A stretch of DNA of 64,000 nucleotides from Synechococcus sp. RS9909. GTDB taxonomy: Bacteria > Cyanobacteriota > Cyanobacteriia > PCC-6307 > Cyanobiaceae. Where the stretch lies: NCBI RefSeq assembly GCF_014279595.1, contig NZ_CP047943.1, positions 1,364,001 through 1,428,000 on the forward strand, in the 5' to 3' direction. Under the pieces are notes generated by a model, which had not been told where the DNA came from, made no database searches, and saw only the letters and a list, made by a program, of their open reading frames with translations. Every line of letters starts with the position of its first letter. The stretch's first letter is position 1. Positions 53,717 to 62,062 of this stretch are shown in pieces. A program made the position numbers and the translations under genes.

Positions 53717-53724
53717 ACTTGCTT

Positions 53725-53733
53725 TGCTAAAAT
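53725..53733 (+). promoter_or_regulatory. Extended -10 promoter of rpmB
   Basis: TGCTAAAAT is TG-n-TAAAAT, an extended -10, located nine bases after the htpG stop. The likely start of transcription lies near 53740, at the edge of a hairpin. No matching -35 is seen. Confidence 0.5.
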
Positions 53734-53740
53734 AGTTGTT

Positions 53741-53756
53741 TGATCCGTTTGGATCA
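53741..53756 (+). promoter_or_regulatory. 5' leader hairpin of rpmB mRNA
   Basis: TGATCC and GGATCA pair perfectly around the tetraloop GTTT. It would form the very 5' end of the rpmB mRNA if transcription starts from the extended -10. Possible stability or translation-control element for ribosomal protein synthesis. Confidence 0.45.
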
Positions 53757-53778
53757 GCGATCAGTCACGGAGTCGATC

Positions 53779-54015
53779 ATGTCCCGGGTATGTCAGCTCA
53801 CCGGCACGCGCGCCAACAACGGCATGGCTGTGAGCCACTCCCATATCCGCACCAAAAAGCTGCAGCAGGCCAACCTGCAGCAGCGTCGCCTCTGGTGGGC
53901 CGAGGGCAAGCGCTGGGTCAACCTGCGCATCACCACCCGCGCTCTGAAAACAATCCAGAAGAAAGGTCTCGGCGCCTACGCCCGCTCCCTTGGCATCGAT
54001 CTCAGCAAGATCTGA
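53779..54015 (+). CDS. rpmB: Large ribosomal subunit protein L28
   Basis: 78 aa from the ATG at 53779; the frame upstream contains no better start. The pattern [23 protein letters not shown] and [21 protein letters not shown] is that of bacterial L28; the sequence here lacks a Cys-x-x-Cys zinc pair, the 'C-minus' form. Preceded by its own promoter and hairpin, followed 40 bases later by the peroxiredoxin gene. Confidence 0.95.
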
Positions 54016-54055: not shown

Positions 54056-54610
54056 ATGCAGCGTCGCACGCTCCTCCAACTGCTTCTGGTCGGAGGGGTT
54101 GTGTTGTGGCGCACCCCCCAGCAGGCTCTCGCCCTCGGCGGCACACTCCCGAGATTGAACCAACCGGCGCCAGGATTTGATTGTCCGGGCACATCACGCC
54201 GCGATCCCAGCCGCTCCCAGTGGTCACTGCGGGATTTTCGTGGGCAGTGGCTTGTTCTTTATTTCTATCCACGCGATTTCACCTCCGGCTGCACCCTTGA
54301 AGCCCATGGTTTTCAAGCCGCCCTGGCCGAATTTGAAGCTGCCGGAGCATCCATCGCCGCTGTGAGCGCCGATCCCGTCGATGAGCATGCCTCGTTCTGC
54401 AGCAGCGAAGGCCTCGATTTCGTGTTGCTCTCCGATCCGAAGGGCCAGGTGAGCCAGCGCTATGGCTCCTGGATGGCACCCTTCTCGATGCGCCACACCT
54501 TCCTGATCGATCCGCAGGGTGTGTTGCGTCAGATCTGGACCGGCGTGCGCCCAGCCGGACACGCCCGCGAGGTGCTCGCTTCGCTCCAGACGGTTCAGGC
54601 CGCAGGCTGA
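54056..54610 (+). CDS. Peroxiredoxin of the BCP/PrxQ family, probably exported
   Basis: 184 aa from the ATG at 54056. The first 26 residues (MQRRTLLQLLLVGGVV, then QQALALGG) look like a signal peptide, and the paired Arg hints at Tat export, so it may act in the periplasm or thylakoid lumen. The peroxidatic Cys is in YPRDFTSGCTLEAHGF. In many PrxQ proteins a resolving Cys follows five residues later; here that position is His, so another Cys (for example in SFCSSEG) or an external thiol must resolve it. Removes peroxides. Confidence 0.85.
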   Translation: MQRRTLLQLLLVGGVVLWRTPQQALALGGTLPRLNQPAPGFDCPGTSRRDPSRSQWSLRDFRGQWLVLYFYPRDFTSGCTLEAHGFQAALAEFEAAGASIAAVSADPVDEHASFCSSEGLDFVLLSDPKGQVSQRYGSWMAPFSMRHTFLIDPQGVLRQIWTGVRPAGHAREVLASLQTVQAAG

Positions 54611-54669
54611 CCCCGCCTCAGGTTTGACAAAGAGCCCGCTTTAAGGAATGGTGGAGATAGATGTAAAGC

Positions 54670-54690
54670 GTTGGATTGAAGCAATCCAAC
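54670..54690 (+). promoter_or_regulatory. Perfect 9-bp hairpin next to the ggpS Shine-Dalgarno
   Basis: GTTGGATTG (54670-54678) pairs exactly with CAATCCAAC (54682-54690) around the triloop AAG. The ggpS Shine-Dalgarno GAGGAG starts two bases later (54692-54697), and the ATG is at 54709. Either a DNA operator or an RNA structure controlling translation of the salt-stress gene. A TTGACA at 54624-54629 might be a -35 but no convincing -10 follows. Confidence 0.6.
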
Positions 54691-54708
54691 CGAGGAGAAA
54701 TCGCTTCC

Positions 54709-56208
54709 ATGTTGAAAGAAGAAGGCAAAAGCTCATTCATTCTTCTCTACCACCGCACCCCTTTTGACGAGGGAAAGGATGAGCAGGGTAAGCGAATCTG
54801 GATCGATCAGAAAAGCCCCAACGGCATCATTCCAACCCTGCGGAACCTGTTTCGCAGCCGCCTCGATGGCACCTGGATCGCCTGGCGTCAGGTTGAATCG
54901 ACCGAAGGGGTCGAAGACGAGCGCATAGCCATGAAGGCGCCGGCAGAATTCACATTGCGACGCATTCCGCTCGAGCAGGAGCAGATCTCAAGTTTTTATC
55001 ACGTCACATCGAAGGAATCGTTCTGGCCGATTCTTCACACTTTTCCCACCTATTTCGACGTCAACAACACGGACTGGACCATCTTTCAGGACGTCAATCG
55101 ACGTTTTGCCCAAGCCGCCTGCCATGAGGCTGGTCACGGGGCCACCGTGTGGGTGCACGACTACAACCTCTGGCTAGCCCCCGGCTACATCCGAGAGCAA
55201 CGCCCTGATCTGAAAATCGCCTTTTTCCATCACACCCCCTTCCCCGGGAATGATGTGTTCGCGATTCTGCCCTGGCGGGAGCAGATCCTGGAAAGTCTGC
55301 TCAGTTGCGATCTCGTTGGTTTTCATATCCCGCGTTACACCGAAAACTTCGCCCGAGCCGCCAATTGCCTGCTGGGCGCCCGCAAGGGACCGAAGCAGCC
55401 GGTCAACGCCCGCTTCCTCTCCACCGGCTCCGCCCTCACGGAACCGTCGGAAACCCCCTGGCTCGACTACAAAGGCCGGCGGATTCAGCTGCTCTCGTCG
55501 CCGGTGGGCACCTCACCGGATGTGATTCAGGCCCTGGTGAATCGCGACGACATTCAGGACTATGCCGCCCGCATCGAAGATGACACCCGCAAGGGTCGTC
55601 AGCTGATCCTCTCGGCCAGCCGGGTGGATTACACCAAGGGCAACGAGGAGTTGTTGCTGGCCTTCGAGCGCCTGCTGGAACGTCGCCCGGAATTGCACGG
55701 CCAGGTGGTGCTCATGCTTGCCTGTGTGTCGGCTGCCAGTGGGATGAAGATCTACGACGACACGCAGCGTTCCATCGAAGAAATGGCCGGGCGGATCAAT
55801 GGGCGCTTCAGCCTCATGGACTGGGTGCCGATCCGCTTCTCGACCCGCCGGATTCCCTACGAAGAAATGGTGGCCTGGTTCAGCAAAGCCGATGTTTGCT
55901 GGATCACCCCCCTGCGGGATGGTCTCAACCTGGTGGCCAAGGAATACGCCGCTGCCCGCCGCGATCACGGCGGCGTTCTGGTGCTCTCCGAATTCACCGG
56001 TGCCTCGGTGGTGCTGGATGGTGCCGTGCTCACCAATCCCTATTCCCATCGCCGGATGGATGAGGCCATCGATCAGGCCCTGGCGATGCCTCCCGAGGAA
56101 CAGCAACAGCGCATGCGCAAGATGTCGGCCGCCGTGGAGGCGTTCACCGTCAGTGACTGGGCTGAAGAGCAGATGGGAGCCCTGCGCGAGGAGTCCGCCG
56201 CGGCATGA
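54709..56208 (+). CDS. ggpS: Glucosylglycerol-phosphate synthase
   Basis: 499 aa from the ATG at 54709, the known GgpS length; a TTG at 54676 sits inside the hairpin and is unlikely. It joins ADP-glucose and glycerol-3-phosphate to give glucosylglycerol phosphate, the first step to the main compatible solute of moderately salt-tolerant and marine cyanobacteria. GT20 motifs: VHDYNLWLAPGYIRE, FFHHTPFPGNDVFAIL, SASRVDYTKGNEELL, PLRDGLNLVAKEY. First gene of a five-gene operon. The second enzyme, the phosphatase (GgpP/StpA), is not in the window. Confidence 0.93.
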   Translation: MLKEEGKSSFILLYHRTPFDEGKDEQGKRIWIDQKSPNGIIPTLRNLFRSRLDGTWIAWRQVESTEGVEDERIAMKAPAEFTLRRIPLEQEQISSFYHVTSKESFWPILHTFPTYFDVNNTDWTIFQDVNRRFAQAACHEAGHGATVWVHDYNLWLAPGYIREQRPDLKIAFFHHTPFPGNDVFAILPWREQILESLLSCDLVGFHIPRYTENFARAANCLLGARKGPKQPVNARFLSTGSALTEPSETPWLDYKGRRIQLLSSPVGTSPDVIQALVNRDDIQDYAARIEDDTRKGRQLILSASRVDYTKGNEELLLAFERLLERRPELHGQVVLMLACVSAASGMKIYDDTQRSIEEMAGRINGRFSLMDWVPIRFSTRRIPYEEMVAWFSKADVCWITPLRDGLNLVAKEYAAARRDHGGVLVLSEFTGASVVLDGAVLTNPYSHRRMDEAIDQALAMPPEEQQQRMRKMSAAVEAFTVSDWAEEQMGALREESAAA

Positions 56209-57485
56209 CATCCGCCCTGCGCCGTCTTCGGCCCTGGATGGTGGTAGCTCTGACCATGGCCCTGCTGCTCGCGGGGAGCGTCGCCTGGCTGCAAGCTCGG
56301 TCGATCGAACCGGTCAACATCCTGATGCCGGCGCCGTTCGCCGATGCGACCCAGCCACTGGTGCAGCGGTTCAACCAGGAGCATCGCGGCCGCATTCGGC
56401 TCACGGTGACGCGAGGCCCGTTGGAAACAGAGGCGATCTCCGATCTGGCCATCAGCAGTCTGCTGCTGGGCGACACCCCCTTCGATGCCCTGTTGATGGA
56501 CATCACCTGGGTGCCTAAATATGTGGCCGCGAATTGGCTGCAACCCCTCGATCCCTGGTTTGGCACCGAGGCCATCGAGGCCCTGGCCGAGGGCGTCCGC
56601 GCTGGCAACAGCGTCAACGCTGTGCTCTACCGCTGGCCCCTCGTCGCCAGCATGGGTCTGCTCTACTGGCGCACGGATCTGATCGATCAACCACCCCGCA
56701 CGCCGCAGGAGCTGGTGACGATCAGCCGGCAGCTCCAGGCCGATGGCCAGGTGCCCTGGGGCTACGTGTGGGAAGGGCGCCAATACGAAGGGCTCAGCTG
56801 TGTGTATTTAGAGCTGGTGCACGGCTTTGGGGGGTTCTGGTTCCACCCCAACCAGCCAGCAGTGGGCCTCAACCAACCCCAGGCGATCGCCGCTGCCGCC
56901 TGGCTGCGTCAACTGATCAGTGAAGGGATCAGCCCTGAGGCGGTGACCAACTACGCCGAACCGGAAGCCCTGCAGAGCTTCAAGGCCGGGGATGCCGCCT
57001 TCATGCGCAACTGGCCCTATGCCTGGGCCGAACTGCAGCAGCCGGGCAGCGCCGTGCGCGGTCGGGTGGGGATCACCACGATGGTGGCCAACAGCGGCGA
57101 TCCCTCCACCGCCACCCTGGGCAGTTGGGGGCTCTCGATGCTGCGCGGTAGTGCCCACCCGGAAGCCACCGCCACGGCGATCCGCTATCTCAGCTCCACC
57201 GAATCGCAGAAGGCGCTGTTTCTCTCCCACGGCTACACCCCCACCGCCGCAAGCTTGTATCGCGATCCCGAGTTGATCGCTGTGAATCCGATCCTCCCCC
57301 AACTGGAGGAGGCCCTGGAGCACGCCCTGCCCAGGCCGGAAACGCCCCTCTACGCCCAGATCAGCGACGTGCTGCAGCGAGACCTGAGCGCCAGCCTCAC
57401 CGGCCAGCAGTCCGCCTCGCAAGGGATGGAGCGGGCCAGCGCCGGCACCGAGGCGATCCTGCTGGCTGCCGGAGAAACGCCGTGA
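56205..57485 (+). CDS. ggtB: Glucosylglycerol ABC transporter substrate-binding protein GgtB
   Basis: 426 aa; its start overlaps the ggpS stop by four bases (ATGA). A hydrophobic N-terminus (MVVALTMALLLAGSVAWL) anchors or exports it, without a lipobox Cys. The fold of carbohydrate-binding extracytoplasmic proteins is seen in VNILMPAPFADATQPLVQRF, DALLMDITWVPKYVAA and SMGLLYWRTDLI. In the Ggt system this protein captures glucosylglycerol, sucrose or trehalose leaking from cells. The assignment rests on the operon as much as sequence. Confidence 0.88.
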   Translation: MTSALRRLRPWMVVALTMALLLAGSVAWLQARSIEPVNILMPAPFADATQPLVQRFNQEHRGRIRLTVTRGPLETEAISDLAISSLLLGDTPFDALLMDITWVPKYVAANWLQPLDPWFGTEAIEALAEGVRAGNSVNAVLYRWPLVASMGLLYWRTDLIDQPPRTPQELVTISRQLQADGQVPWGYVWEGRQYEGLSCVYLELVHGFGGFWFHPNQPAVGLNQPQAIAAAAWLRQLISEGISPEAVTNYAEPEALQSFKAGDAAFMRNWPYAWAELQQPGSAVRGRVGITTMVANSGDPSTATLGSWGLSMLRGSAHPEATATAIRYLSSTESQKALFLSHGYTPTAASLYRDPELIAVNPILPQLEEALEHALPRPETPLYAQISDVLQRDLSASLTGQQSASQGMERASAGTEAILLAAGETP

Positions 57486-58348
57486 TCCTGCTGCTTGGGC
57501 CCGCCGGCCTGCTCCTTCTCCTGGTGTTTGTGGCGCCGCTGCTGCATTACGCCTGGCTGAGCAACCACGCCCAGTCGGTGGTCACCGGCCTCGAGCCGGT
57601 GCTCAATCACGGCGCCAACTGGATCCGACTGCTCCAGGATCAACGCTTCTGGCAAGACGCCGCCCAGACCCTGCGCTTCGCCGTTGTGTCGGTGGGGGTG
57701 GAACTGCTGCTGGCCCTGGCGATCGCCCTGTTGCTCGATCAACGCTGGCGCGGCCGTGGTGCCGTGCGGGCCATCGCCCTGATTCCCTGGGCCCTGCCCA
57801 CCACCGTGATGGCCCTGGGTTGGCGCTGGATCTTCAACACCCCCTACGGCCCCCTCGATCAACTCGCCCAGGCACTCGGTTGGCCATCCCTGAACCTGTT
57901 GGCCAATCCTGCGACCACCTGGATCGCCACGGTGGTGGGTGATGTGTGGAAAACCACGCCGTTTGCGGCCCTGATCCTGTTGGCCGGCTTGCAGACCATT
58001 CCCGGTGATCTCTACGAAGCGCTGCGCCTGGAAGGGGGCAGCAGCTGGGTCTGCTTCCGACGCATCACCCTGCCCCTGTTGCGCCCTTACCTGGCCCTGG
58101 CTCTGCTGTTCCGGCTGGCCCAGGCCTTCGGCGTGTTTGACCTGATCCAGGTGATGACCGGCGGCGGACCGGCCAGCAGCACCGAAAGCCTGGCGCTGTA
58201 TGCGTACCTCAACGCGATGCGATTCCTCGATTTCGGCTACAGCGCCACCGTGGTGAGCGGAAGCTTCCTGCTCTTGCTCGGTTGTTGCCTCGGCGGTTGG
58301 CTGCTGGCCCTCAGCCTCTCCAGGCCCCAGGGGCAGCAGGAGGTGTAA
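57482..58348 (+). CDS. ggtC: Glucosylglycerol ABC transporter permease GgtC
   Basis: 288 aa from a GTG overlapping the ggtB stop by four bases. Membrane subunit of the MalF/UgpA type. Hydrophobic spans include LLGPAGLLLLLVFVAPLLHY at the start and VELLLALAIALLLDQ. The EAA loop is EALRLEGGSSWVCFRRITLP. Forms a heterodimeric channel with GgtD, powered by GgtA. Confidence 0.9.
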   Translation: MILLLGPAGLLLLLVFVAPLLHYAWLSNHAQSVVTGLEPVLNHGANWIRLLQDQRFWQDAAQTLRFAVVSVGVELLLALAIALLLDQRWRGRGAVRAIALIPWALPTTVMALGWRWIFNTPYGPLDQLAQALGWPSLNLLANPATTWIATVVGDVWKTTPFAALILLAGLQTIPGDLYEALRLEGGSSWVCFRRITLPLLRPYLALALLFRLAQAFGVFDLIQVMTGGGPASSTESLALYAYLNAMRFLDFGYSATVVSGSFLLLLGCCLGGWLLALSLSRPQGQQEV

Positions 58349-58352
58349 GCGG

Positions 58353-59171
58353 ATGCCACACCAACGTCGCTTCTGGATTGTGCTGTTGCTGGCATGGTCG
58401 CTCGGCCCCCTGCTCTGGCAGCTTTACACCTCTTTTTGCAGCAATCAGGCCCTGGTTTCGCCCTTCGCCGCCACGCCGGAGCGCTGGACCCTGGCCCATT
58501 ACCGGGCCGTGCTCAACAGTGAACCACCGTTTTGGCGCTATCTGCTCAACAGCCTGATCGTGGGCACGAGCAGCACGGTGCTCACCCTGGTGATCGCCCT
58601 CCCCGCCGCCTATGCCCTCACCCGGCTCAAGCCCTGGATTGCGCGCCCGGCGCGGCTGCTGCTGCTGGCGGCCGCGCTGTTTCCCTACGTGTTGCTGTTT
58701 CTGGCCCTGTTGGAAGTGGCGCGGAGCCTGCACCTGGGCAATCACCTGCTCGCCCTGAGCATTCCCTATGCCGCTCTCTCCCAGCCCCTGGCGATCCTGC
58801 TGCTCACCGCAGCCTTCCTGGATCTGCCTCTCGACCTGGAGGATGCCGCCCGTCTTGAGGGCATGGGGCTGTGGCAACGCCTGCGTTGGGTGCTGATCCC
58901 CCTGATCGCACCCGCCACCACCAGCACAGCGATTCTGGTGTTTCTGTTCTCCTGGAACGAATACCCGATCGCCCTCACCTGGATCAGCGACGCCTCCCTG
59001 CTCACCCTGCCGGTGGCGATGGCCCGGATCGCCGGCTCCTCGATTTACTCCGTTCCTTACGGTGCCTACGCAGCCGCCACCGTGCTGGGGTCGATTCCGC
59101 TGGTGCTCCTGGTGTTGCTGTTCCAGAAATCGATCGTTTCAGGTCTGACCAGCGGAGCCGTGAAGGGATGA
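58353..59171 (+). CDS. ggtD: Glucosylglycerol ABC transporter permease GgtD
   Basis: 272 aa, four bases after ggtC. MalG/UgpE-type partner permease: WIVLLLAWSLGPLLWQLYTS at the start, LVIALPAAYALTRLKPW, and the EAA loop EDAARLEGMGLWQRLRWVLI followed by PLIAPATTSTAILVFLFSW. Its stop overlaps the ggtA start (ATGA). Confidence 0.9.
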   Translation: MPHQRRFWIVLLLAWSLGPLLWQLYTSFCSNQALVSPFAATPERWTLAHYRAVLNSEPPFWRYLLNSLIVGTSSTVLTLVIALPAAYALTRLKPWIARPARLLLLAAALFPYVLLFLALLEVARSLHLGNHLLALSIPYAALSQPLAILLLTAAFLDLPLDLEDAARLEGMGLWQRLRWVLIPLIAPATTSTAILVFLFSWNEYPIALTWISDASLLTLPVAMARIAGSSIYSVPYGAYAAATVLGSIPLVLLVLLFQKSIVSGLTSGAVKG

Positions 59172-60139
59172 GTCTGAGCCTCTCAAACATCGGTCGCCGC
59201 GCCGGCCAGCAGTGGATTCTTCGCCATCTGGAGCTGACGGTGAGCGATGGCGAATGTCTCGCCCTTGTCGGCCCGAGCGGCTGCGGCAAAAGCACCACCC
59301 TGCGGCTGATTGCCGGGCTTGATCCAGCCGATGAGGGCACCATTGAACTCGGGGGACGCGATGTCACCCGCCTGCCTGCTGTGCAACGCCGCATCGGCAT
59401 GGTGTTTCAGAGCTATGCCCTGTTCCCCCACCTCAGCGTCGCCGACAACCTCGATCTGGGCCTGAAGATTCGCGGGATCGCCATCCAGGAACGACGCCGT
59501 CGGGTGAGCGACGTGCTGGAACGCATGCGGCTGAACGAACGGGCCGCCCACAAACCGGCCCAGCTCTCCGGTGGTCAACGCCAGCGCGTCGCCCTGGCCC
59601 GGGCCCTGCTCCGCGATCCGCTCATCTATCTGATGGATGAGCCGATGAGCAATCTCGATGCCCAGCTGCGGGAAGACCTCCGGCCGGAATTACGCCAACT
59701 GGTGTTGCGCGATCAGAAACCGGTCCTTTACGTGACCCACGATCAACACGAAGCGATGGCGATGGCGGATCGGATCGCCGTTCTGCATCAGGGCAGGTTG
59801 GAACAGATCGGCACACCGAGCGAGCTGTATCTCGATCCGGTGTCGCTGTTTGTGGCCACCTTCATCGGTCGCCCCCAGATCAACCTGCTGCACACCGAGT
59901 CCAACATCGTGCGTGGCGTCCGCCCGGAGACCCTGCAGCTGCAAGACGACGGCCTGCCCTGCCGGCTCACCCATCTGGAGTGGCTCGGTGCCTCCCAACT
60001 CTGGTACCTCGACAGCCCGCAGGGGGCCTTGCGCATGGTGGTGGCCGCCGACAGCCGCGTTCCAGAGACGCTCCGGGTCGGCTGGCGGCCCCAGGACGAA
60101 CTGCGGTTTGATGCAGTCAGCGGCCGCCGCCATCGCTAG
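59168..60139 (+). CDS. ggtA: Glucosylglycerol ABC transporter ATPase GgtA
   Basis: 323 aa from the ATG at 59168. MalK-like ATPase: Walker [18 protein letters not shown]-loop FQSYALFPHLSVADNL, signature AQLSGGQRQRVALARAL, Walker B LIYLMDEPMSNLDAQ, and switch His in YVTHDQHEAMAMADRI. The C-terminal regulatory (TOBE-like) part is short (about 90 residues) and includes VRGVRPETLQLQ. In Synechocystis ggtA lies apart from ggtBCD; here all four genes and ggpS form one run. Confidence 0.92.
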   Translation: MSLSLSNIGRRAGQQWILRHLELTVSDGECLALVGPSGCGKSTTLRLIAGLDPADEGTIELGGRDVTRLPAVQRRIGMVFQSYALFPHLSVADNLDLGLKIRGIAIQERRRRVSDVLERMRLNERAAHKPAQLSGGQRQRVALARALLRDPLIYLMDEPMSNLDAQLREDLRPELRQLVLRDQKPVLYVTHDQHEAMAMADRIAVLHQGRLEQIGTPSELYLDPVSLFVATFIGRPQINLLHTESNIVRGVRPETLQLQDDGLPCRLTHLEWLGASQLWYLDSPQGALRMVVAADSRVPETLRVGWRPQDELRFDAVSGRRHR

Positions 60140-60163: not shown

Positions 60164-62062
60164 ATGGGCGACGGCGGTTCCGGACCGATCCTGATCTGCG
60201 GCATTGGCTCTCTCGGTCAGATCTGTCTGGAACGGCTCCGCCATTTCGACGTCCCTCTGATCTGCATCGACCGGGATCCACCCGTCTGGCGCTCCGACCA
60301 GCTGGAACAGGCGGTGGCCGGCCAGCTGGTGATCGGCGACATGCGCCGGCCCGAGATCCTGGAGCGCGCTCAGGTGCGGCTCGCCCGCAGCGTGTTGCTG
60401 CTCAGTTCGAACAGCACGGTGAACCTGGAAGCGGCGCTGCAGGTGAGGATTCTCAATCCCGACACCACGATCGTGGTGCGCTCGAGCAGTCAGCAAGCTT
60501 CCCTGAACACCCTGCTGCAGAGCCGGCTACCGAAACTGACGGTGGTGGATCCGCTGCTGCTCTGCGCCGGAGCGATCGCCCAGTCGCTGCGGCCGGACCG
60601 GGCACCCGCCACCTTCCGCATCGGTGGGGAGCGGCTGCGCCTGGAGCGCCTGTCCATCGACGCTGGCCACGGCAACAGCCACCGGATCCGGCCCCTGCAA
60701 CTGCACAGCGGTGACCCGCCCACGCAGGGCTCCCCCCTGGTGGTGAGCTGGGAAGCCAGCAGCAGCCGATCGCGGCAACGTCGACGCACCGCCTGGAGAA
60801 GCTTTGGCGCCGTGCGGCTGATGGCCCTGCGGGATCGCCTCCGCCGGCAACTGAGATCACGCCTGGCCCAACCCCGCGCCTGGGATCTGGCCATCCTGCT
60901 GATGGTGAGTCTCTTGGTGGTCGGTGTGCAGTATTTCGCCACCGGCAGGGGTCTGCAGGAAGGCCTGTTCATCACGGTGGCCTTGCTCAAGGGGGAACTG
61001 GTCGACCCCGTGAACATGCTGATCGAGGCCAGCGGTCAGTCGCTGAACCAACTGCCCCTGCTGGCGCTGGTCACCTCCTTGCTCTACGCCCTGCTCGGCA
61101 CCGTGCTCACCTCGGCGATTGTGGCCTTGATCCTCGATCAGGTGCTCAGCCGTCGTCTGGGCCTGCAACGGCGGCGGGCGCCGAAACGGGGCAGTCGCAC
61201 GGTGTTGCTGCTGGAGGGAGGTGCCCTGGCGGCACCGGTGACGGAGCAGTTGGCCCTCGATGGCCTCGATGTGGTGCGGGTGGAAGCGGGAGATGGCGAG
61301 GGCGACCAACAGCTGAACCGCAGCCTCGAGAGTTTGCGACGCACCCAGTGCCTGGGTGCCGGATTGCTCTCCAACGACCTGCTGCGCAACCTTCGGATCG
61401 GCCTGGAGCTGCAGCAGAGCCTCCCCAACACCCGATTGGCGATCGTGACCAAGGACCTCGATGCAGCCGACGCCCTCGGCGATCTGCTCGGCGGCATCAC
61501 CCTGATCTCCACCCTCGACCTGGCGGCGGATGCCTTCGTGGCGACCGCCTTCGGCGAGAAAGTGGAGGAGGTGCGCCGCTTGGATGGCAACAACCTGCTT
61601 CTCGTGCGCTACCGAGTCGAAACCGACGACAGCCTGCATGGCCTCAGCATTGCCAGGTTGCAATGCGGCTTCGGGGTCACCGCCGTCGCCCTGCGCCGCC
61701 AGCTCCACGCCGCTTACACCCTGCTGCCCGGCCTCGACTGGACGCTCTCACCCGGCCAGGAGCTGGTGGTGCTTGCCGACCTGAAGGGACTGCGCCGGAT
61801 TGAACGCAACGACATCCGGCCACCGCGCTGGCGGTTGCGCTATCAGGTGCATCATCGATCGGCCCAGAGCTTCGACACCCAGCAGGTGCTGGCCCGCAAC
61901 CTGGGCCAGGCGCCGGGATCCTTTGCCGAGGCAATGGATGGTGCCTGGCACTGCACCCCCGCCCTGGATCTGCCCCTGGCCGAACAACTGCAGGCGGAAC
62001 TCCGTCGCATGGCGGTGCGGACGGAACGGCTGGCCATGGACGACGGTGCGATGTGCTGCTGA
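60164..62062 (+). CDS. Two-TM protein flanked by two RCK/TrkA-N-like domains
   Basis: 632 aa. Residues 8-140 form a Rossmann RCK/TrkA-N domain (ILICGIGSLGQICLERL, then GDMRRPEILERAQV). A basic linker (about 200-238) precedes a membrane segment at about 239-258 and a second at about 299-325 (LVTSLLYALLGTVLTSAIVA). A second Rossmann-like domain (about 344-480) with RTVLLLEGGALAAPV follows. It resembles VIC-type potassium channel proteins, but the TVGYG selectivity filter is absent between the two spans (VALLKGELVDPVNMLIEA). It may be a K+ or other ion pathway, a gating subunit, or a sensor. It follows ggtA after 24 bases. Confidence 0.7.
   Translation: MGDGGSGPILICGIGSLGQICLERLRHFDVPLICIDRDPPVWRSDQLEQAVAGQLVIGDMRRPEILERAQVRLARSVLLLSSNSTVNLEAALQVRILNPDTTIVVRSSSQQASLNTLLQSRLPKLTVVDPLLLCAGAIAQSLRPDRAPATFRIGGERLRLERLSIDAGHGNSHRIRPLQLHSGDPPTQGSPLVVSWEASSSRSRQRRRTAWRSFGAVRLMALRDRLRRQLRSRLAQPRAWDLAILLMVSLLVVGVQYFATGRGLQEGLFITVALLKGELVDPVNMLIEASGQSLNQLPLLALVTSLLYALLGTVLTSAIVALILDQVLSRRLGLQRRRAPKRGSRTVLLLEGGALAAPVTEQLALDGLDVVRVEAGDGEGDQQLNRSLESLRRTQCLGAGLLSNDLLRNLRIGLELQQSLPNTRLAIVTKDLDAADALGDLLGGITLISTLDLAADAFVATAFGEKVEEVRRLDGNNLLLVRYRVETDDSLHGLSIARLQCGFGVTAVALRRQLHAAYTLLPGLDWTLSPGQELVVLADLKGLRRIERNDIRPPRWRLRYQVHHRSAQSFDTQQVLARNLGQAPGSFAEAMDGAWHCTPALDLPLAEQLQAELRRMAVRTERLAMDDGAMCC

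Follow-up and report, generated by a model that had tools for sequence, protein, structure and literature searches.

The window analysed here is a stretch of 64,000 nucleotides from Synechococcus sp. RS9909 (contig NZ_CP047943.1), and it contains the glucosylglycerol-phosphate synthase gene ggpS followed by four ABC sugar-transporter-like genes (Table 1). The identity of ggpS, assigned beforehand in a sequence-only reading of the window, was upheld by a TIGR02398 score of 807.7 bits, which exceeds the cut-off of 569. The order of the four transporter-like genes is as expected for ggtB, ggtC, ggtD, and ggtA. Directly after them, positions 60164-62062 encode a 632-aa protein whose TrkA-like matches score 29.7 bits, a long way short of the cut-off of 293; this protein is possibly ion-related.

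Table 1. Features of the ggpS locus, in window coordinates.
Feature	Position	Strand	Basis or remark
-35-like element TTTGACA	54623..54629	+	common to many ggpS loci
-10-like element AATGGTGG	54647..54654	+	17 nt after TTTGACA; too unlike the sigma-70 consensus for a standard scan
Variable segment separating the promoter block from the hairpin block	54656..54665	+	L083 has other bases at 5 of the 10 positions
Predicted transcription start (about ±2 nt)	54659..54659	+	placed from the -10-like element
9-bp stem with 3-nt loop, GTTGGATTG-AAG-CAATCCAAC	54670..54690	+	read from the sequence; -9.6 kcal/mol
Shine-Dalgarno sequence GAGGAG, outside the stem	54692..54697	+	read from the sequence; predicted pairing with the coding sequence
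ggpS, glucosylglycerol-phosphate synthase, 499 aa	54709..56208	+	TIGR02398
Four ABC sugar-transporter-like genes (56205-57485, 57482-58348, 58353-59171, 59174-60139)	56205..60139	+	general transporter matches, below curated cut-offs

The hairpin and its promoter-like neighbour

The stem-loop before ggpS is real. Its arms, at 54670-54678 and 54682-54690, form nine of nine pairs around an AAG loop. The perfect 9-bp stem, the loop, the GAGGAG starting at 54692, and the ATG at 54709 were all described in the sequence-only reading, and these coordinates are borne out by the sequence. The stem had also been placed two bases before the Shine-Dalgarno sequence; it does adjoin that sequence, but the gap is a single base (C54691). 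When the 98-nt spacer was shuffled 20,000 times with its dinucleotide content preserved, 26 of the shuffled sequences had a perfect stem of 9 bp or longer and a loop of 3-8 nt. Such stems are found at six places in the 64-kb window, which count as 11 entries, as registers of one hairpin were counted separately; the mean over 20 shuffles was 2.95 entries. As the window has further perfect hairpins, the stem is unusual for its own spacer, not for the window. Among the 31 gene starts, crudely called, that have a spacer of at least 45 nt, ggpS has the lowest shuffle p (0.010).

Upstream of ggpS lies a promoter-like element, TTTGACA-N17-AANGGTGG (54623-54654), which is conserved among ggpS loci. 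With a score of at least 10.5, the element was found before ggpS in 55 of the 114 distinct loci with a GgpS identity of at least 60%, and the spacer is 17 nt in 52 of these and 18 nt in the other three. The score was devised after the sequences had been viewed, so that the base counts are partly built in; the comparison with shuffled sequences is a fairer test, and the best score among 303 shuffled upstream regions was 9.8. Read as a promoter, the element combines a consensus -35 with an unusual -10, AATGGT, which has GGT in the -10 position. Only 27 of the 55 loci have T as the third base of AATGGT. A consensus scan for sigma-70-type promoters called none within 54500-54800, and the location assigned to the stem in a 5' untranslated region depends on the start of about 54659 that is predicted from the conserved element. 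From this start, the leader would be about 50 nt long, with the hairpin beginning at +12. As the conserved element implies a start near 54659, the hairpin is probably transcribed.

With up to two mismatches, the element occurs at eight places in the RS9909 genome (two for a reversed-pattern control); the copy before ggpS is a perfect match, and the other seven each have two mismatches. With up to one mismatch, 31 genomes of the genus gave 39 places in 23 genomes, nine of them before ggpS by position. The 30 places not before ggpS compare with 26 control matches, and a promoter regulon is therefore not claimed. In five of the genomes (G277, G289, G300, G302, and G303; loci L129, L128, L133, L135, and L136), a near-identical stretch away from ggpS fits the promoter pattern. 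Inverted repeats span the promoter spacer in single lineages (L012, L037, L161, and L007); in L012, one of 10 bp surrounds the -10. No clear overall enrichment of such repeats was found, with p<0.05 in 7 of 70 loci.

The closest of the relatives examined, L083 (GgpS identity of 97%), is identical to the window at 54603-54655 and 54666-54731. The two share 85.2% of their third codon positions in ggpS. At that level, the chance of no change is about 0.035 for the 21 bases of the hairpin and about 0.001 for the 43 bases from 54666 to the ATG, although the latter include the ribosome-binding site, which is expected to be kept regardless.

Hairpins in the predicted leaders of ggpS and rpmB

The relatives comprised 80 of 576 encoding relatives and 108 matched genomes out of 300 of the family, with 30 loci among the matches listed; 28 of the 31 genus genomes and 40 more stretches were added. 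Of the 129 distinct upstream regions obtained, 114 have a GgpS identity of at least 60%. The leader test kept 63 of the 129, namely those with this identity, a leader of at least 15 nt, and a promoter score of at least 9.7 within 130 nt, or membership of sister group B as recognised by its own box. Loci with a promoter farther upstream were left out, for example L050, L052, L187-L191, and Cyanobium L054, L056, and L059. The promoter scores of sister group B, 8.0-9.5, are within the shuffle range, and its leader length rests on a shared GTTAGAGATGG box. In each leader, taken from the predicted start to the ATG, the best hairpin was compared with 200 shuffles and called significant at p<0.05.

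Predicted leaders of at least 34 nt exhibit a significant hairpin in 19 of 25 sequences, or in 8 of 13 lineages when counts are collapsed to lineages grouped by hand, compared with 2 of 38 sequences among shorter leaders; the 34-nt cut was picked after the sequences had been viewed. Control segments of equal length gave lower counts. Those ending 100 and 160 nt before the ATG reached significance in 0/13 and 2/13 lineages (1/25 and 6/24 sequences), and those taken from 60, 200, and 500 nt inside ggpS in 0/13, 3/13, and 1/13 lineages (0/25, 3/25, and 2/25 sequences). The recurrence persists when sister group B is removed, with significance in 11 of the 16 remaining sequences and in 7 of the 12 lineages. 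Long leaders with no significant hairpin are those of L007, L107, L179, L018, L192, and L004. WH7803 (L017), which has the same promoter element, shows no stem in its leader. A shuffle test applied to the last 45 nt of the leaders of other genes gave p<0.05 in 3 of 44 cases for htpG and 4 of 68 for rpmB; it is an imperfect control, as it misses short stems such as the covarying stem of rpmB.

The stems themselves differ from lineage to lineage. Sister group B exhibits TGGCTC-N4-GAGCCA, L084 exhibits GCGCC-N6-GGCGC, L105 and L022 exhibit a 10-bp stem, and RCC307 and its kin exhibit a stem of 9-10 bp that is farther from the start. Among the relatives examined, the arms of the window stem are kept only in L083. 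The hairpin before ggpS looks like one lineage's version of a stem that recurs, with changing letters, in the longer predicted ggpS leaders of marine picocyanobacteria. In sister group B (L087, L089, L093, and kin), a second hairpin is predicted within codons 4-10 of ggpS, with the form AAAGGGAC-AAA-GTCCTTT in L087.

The sequence-only reading had suggested looking for covariation of the stem in relatives, and the outcome is divided. For the window stem, no compensatory change is observed, because its only near relative, L083, is identical. Pairing is kept in sister group B, with modest statistics. In the nine leaders of that group, all 54 stem cells are paired while the loops vary, with one compensatory cell and three G-U cells. 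This pairing was equalled by 108 of 500 column shuffles, and only 28-43% of cells pair when the partners are slid by 1-3 columns. The variation in the sister group thus appears to preserve RNA pairing, with modest support. A joint alignment of unlike leaders was set aside, as the stems failed to align.

A comparable leader is found in the same genomes before rpmB, which encodes L28 and lies two genes upstream of ggpS. In the window, a TTTGCTAAAAT box and a short hairpin (53723-53757) precede its ATG at 53779. The hairpin, TTGATCCGTTTGGATCAG at 53740-53757, covaries in an alignment of 29 sequences that includes the window: 91.4% of 116 cells are paired, nine cells are changed on both sides, and the covariation score was reached by none of 500 shuffles, whereas 35 of 500 reached the changed-pair count and 212 of 500 the pair-type count. 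One of the four pairs is broken in 10 of the 29 sequences. Rfam gave no match to this hairpin, which may represent a leader structure of L28. The leaders of rpmB and ggpS share an arrangement in which a -10-like box is followed by a short hairpin of changing letters and then by the start codon. However, the rpmB stem is shorter (4-7 bp), its box is unrelated, and its covariation is stronger. As box, stem, and start codon come in the same order before rpmB, leader stems are not special to the salt gene.

Proposed function and rival explanations

Rfam 15, searched over the whole window at the gathering score, gave one tRNA only, and a search of 54550-54800 up to E=10 gave one irrelevant match on the other strand. 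No terminator-like sites were found within 54500-54800, and no T run follows the stem, as an intrinsic terminator or attenuator would require. With no T run, no Rfam family, and a palindrome that is not repeated in the genome, a leader RNA stem is the best reading. We propose, with confidence scarcely above even, that the mRNA of the ggpS operon has this hairpin as a stem-loop in its 5' untranslated leader, where it acts constitutively and stabilizes the transcript. Transcription would proceed from the TTTGACA-N17-AATGGT promoter and start near 54659. About 11 nt after the start, the RNA would form the 9-bp stem that ends one base before the Shine-Dalgarno sequence. The stem would act through its fold rather than its letters, and relatives with a similar leader length often have a different stem. 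Being near the 5' end, it may retard 5'-end-dependent decay and give a set structure to the part of the leader that precedes the ribosome-binding site; we infer the stabilizing action and the lack of salt dependence. Decay of this 5'-end-dependent kind is of the RNase E type.

That the palindrome is an accident, i.e., a stable stem with no function, is in our opinion rather unlikely. In its favour, hairpins of -7 kcal/mol or lower precede 14 of the 31 crudely called gene starts of the window, against 6.6 expected, and many relatives have no stem. Moreover, the 130-nt region folded as a whole shows nothing unusual relative to shuffles (z of 0.07), a result that is uninformative. However, chance does not account well for the rarity of such a stem in the shuffled spacer (26 of 20,000), for its unchanged state in L083, or for the presence of stems in 8 of 13 lineages with long leaders, where the control segments reach 0-3 of 13. 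Slightly less probable still is a stem that belongs to a leader switch, in which ribosome access varies with salt, ions, temperature, or a small RNA. The stem adjoins the Shine-Dalgarno sequence, and an RNAfold prediction from 54659 leaves that sequence mostly paired with the downstream coding sequence, with an unpaired probability of 0.02-0.27, which is ill-suited to a leader that merely keeps the Shine-Dalgarno sequence open. Breaking the stem in this fold frees three of its six bases (54692, 54693, and 54697, at 0.79-0.81), while the GGA core at 54694-54696 is not freed (0.01-0.22). The ggpS mRNA is also responsive to salinity in Synechococcus, as it goes up at 50 PSU in RS9907 and WH5701 (PMC12834511) and down in HK05 upon transfer to low salinity (PMC9948718), and the small RNA IsaR1 acts on ggpS in Synechocystis (PMC6753628, PMC8670252). 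For a switch that sequesters the Shine-Dalgarno sequence, or an RNA thermometer, the picture is mixed: the stem ends at 54690 and GAGGAG is not inside it, and the pairing predicted for GAGGAG elsewhere shifts with the assumed 5' end, its unpaired probability being 0.16-0.60 for other assumed starts with the stem intact. Relatives such as WH7803 have the same promoter element and no stem. The salinity data, furthermore, are mRNA levels, and such changes could be explained by the promoter alone.

The sequence-only reading had offered two roles for the stem, an RNA element next to the ribosome-binding site and an operator for the whole operon. The RNA half is supported in part, by a stem that is probably transcribed, adjoins the ribosome-binding site, and recurs in long leaders, whereas the operator half is not supported. 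An operator would bind a dimeric regulator of the operon, and the perfect dyad lies 15 bases from the promoter-like element, a possible position for a repressor. We nonetheless consider this very improbable. A search of the RS9909 genome allowing up to three mismatches found no second copy of the palindrome, and an operator regulon was rejected on this basis; of the relatives examined, L083 alone retains the arms; and among the 25 best stems in long leaders, 11 contain G-U pairs, which speaks against an operator since G-U is a mismatch in duplex DNA. The changing arms, the G-U pairs, and the pairing in the sister group together fit an RNA structure better than a conserved operator. It is even harder to credit a short upstream frame of the GgpR type, in which a reading frame opened by the ATG at 54648 would cross the hairpin and continue into ggpS. 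Synechocystis has a small ORF that overlaps its ggpS promoter (PMC6753628, PMC8670252), and the frame from 54648 is open up to the ggpS start, as judged by eye, in the window, L083, L062, and L096. However, this ATG belongs to the AATGGT of the -10-like element, in which scarcely half of the loci have T at the third base; the frame stops, by eye, after five codons in L017 and after two in L106; and it would open upstream of the predicted mRNA start.

Beyond the leader stem proposed above, a broader scheme can be put forward as speculation that we think unlikely to hold as a whole, in which ggpS control in picocyanobacteria would have two parts. The salt response would reside in the unusual promoter (TTTGACA-N17-AANGGTGG, whose -35 is near consensus and whose -10 is of the GGT type), by way of an alternative sigma factor or of open-complex formation that is sensitive to ions. 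The leader stem, conserved as a fold only and present according to leader length, would set a matching mRNA lifetime or translation.

Comparison with known systems

In marine Synechococcus, salinity-dependent ggpS mRNA levels (PMC12834511, PMC9948718) and a computational assignment of ggpS to the sigma-38 regulon in WH8102 (PMC2874817) have been reported, with no mapped control region in the available portions of these papers. In the literature searched for ggpS leaders, starts, or salt in Synechococcus, in which subscription papers were mostly not covered, we found no described ggpS leader hairpin. In Synechocystis, the regulation of ggpS involves GgpR, LexA, SigF, and IsaR1 (PMC6753628, PMC4390839, PMC8670252). 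The two systems share the gene and a salt-dependent mRNA level. In contrast to Synechocystis, no GgpR-like frame is conserved among the ggpS loci viewed, and clear GgpR homologues are missing from databases according to the portion of a review available to us (PMC6753628). Neither TTTGACA-N17-AANGGTGG nor a leader stem is mentioned in the available portions of accounts of ggpS regulation in Synechocystis (PMC6753628, PMC4390839, PMC8670252).

The layout offered here combines a promoter element common to picocyanobacterial ggpS loci with a leader stem that seemingly keeps its fold and not its letters. The more telling findings are that ggpS loci share a promoter-like element and that long ggpS leaders tend to exhibit stems of free sequence, and a palindrome next to a start codon, even a perfect one, is not necessarily an operator. 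Among bacterial mRNAs, the ompA type of Escherichia coli has a stabilizing stem-loop at the 5' terminus, with few unpaired nucleotides before the stem. The ggpS leader differs in that about 11 unpaired nucleotides are predicted before its stem and in that it comes from a different phylum. The likeness, which is one of predicted structure, consists of a short stable stem near the 5' end of the mRNA, upstream of the Shine-Dalgarno sequence, in which the fold would matter more than the sequence.
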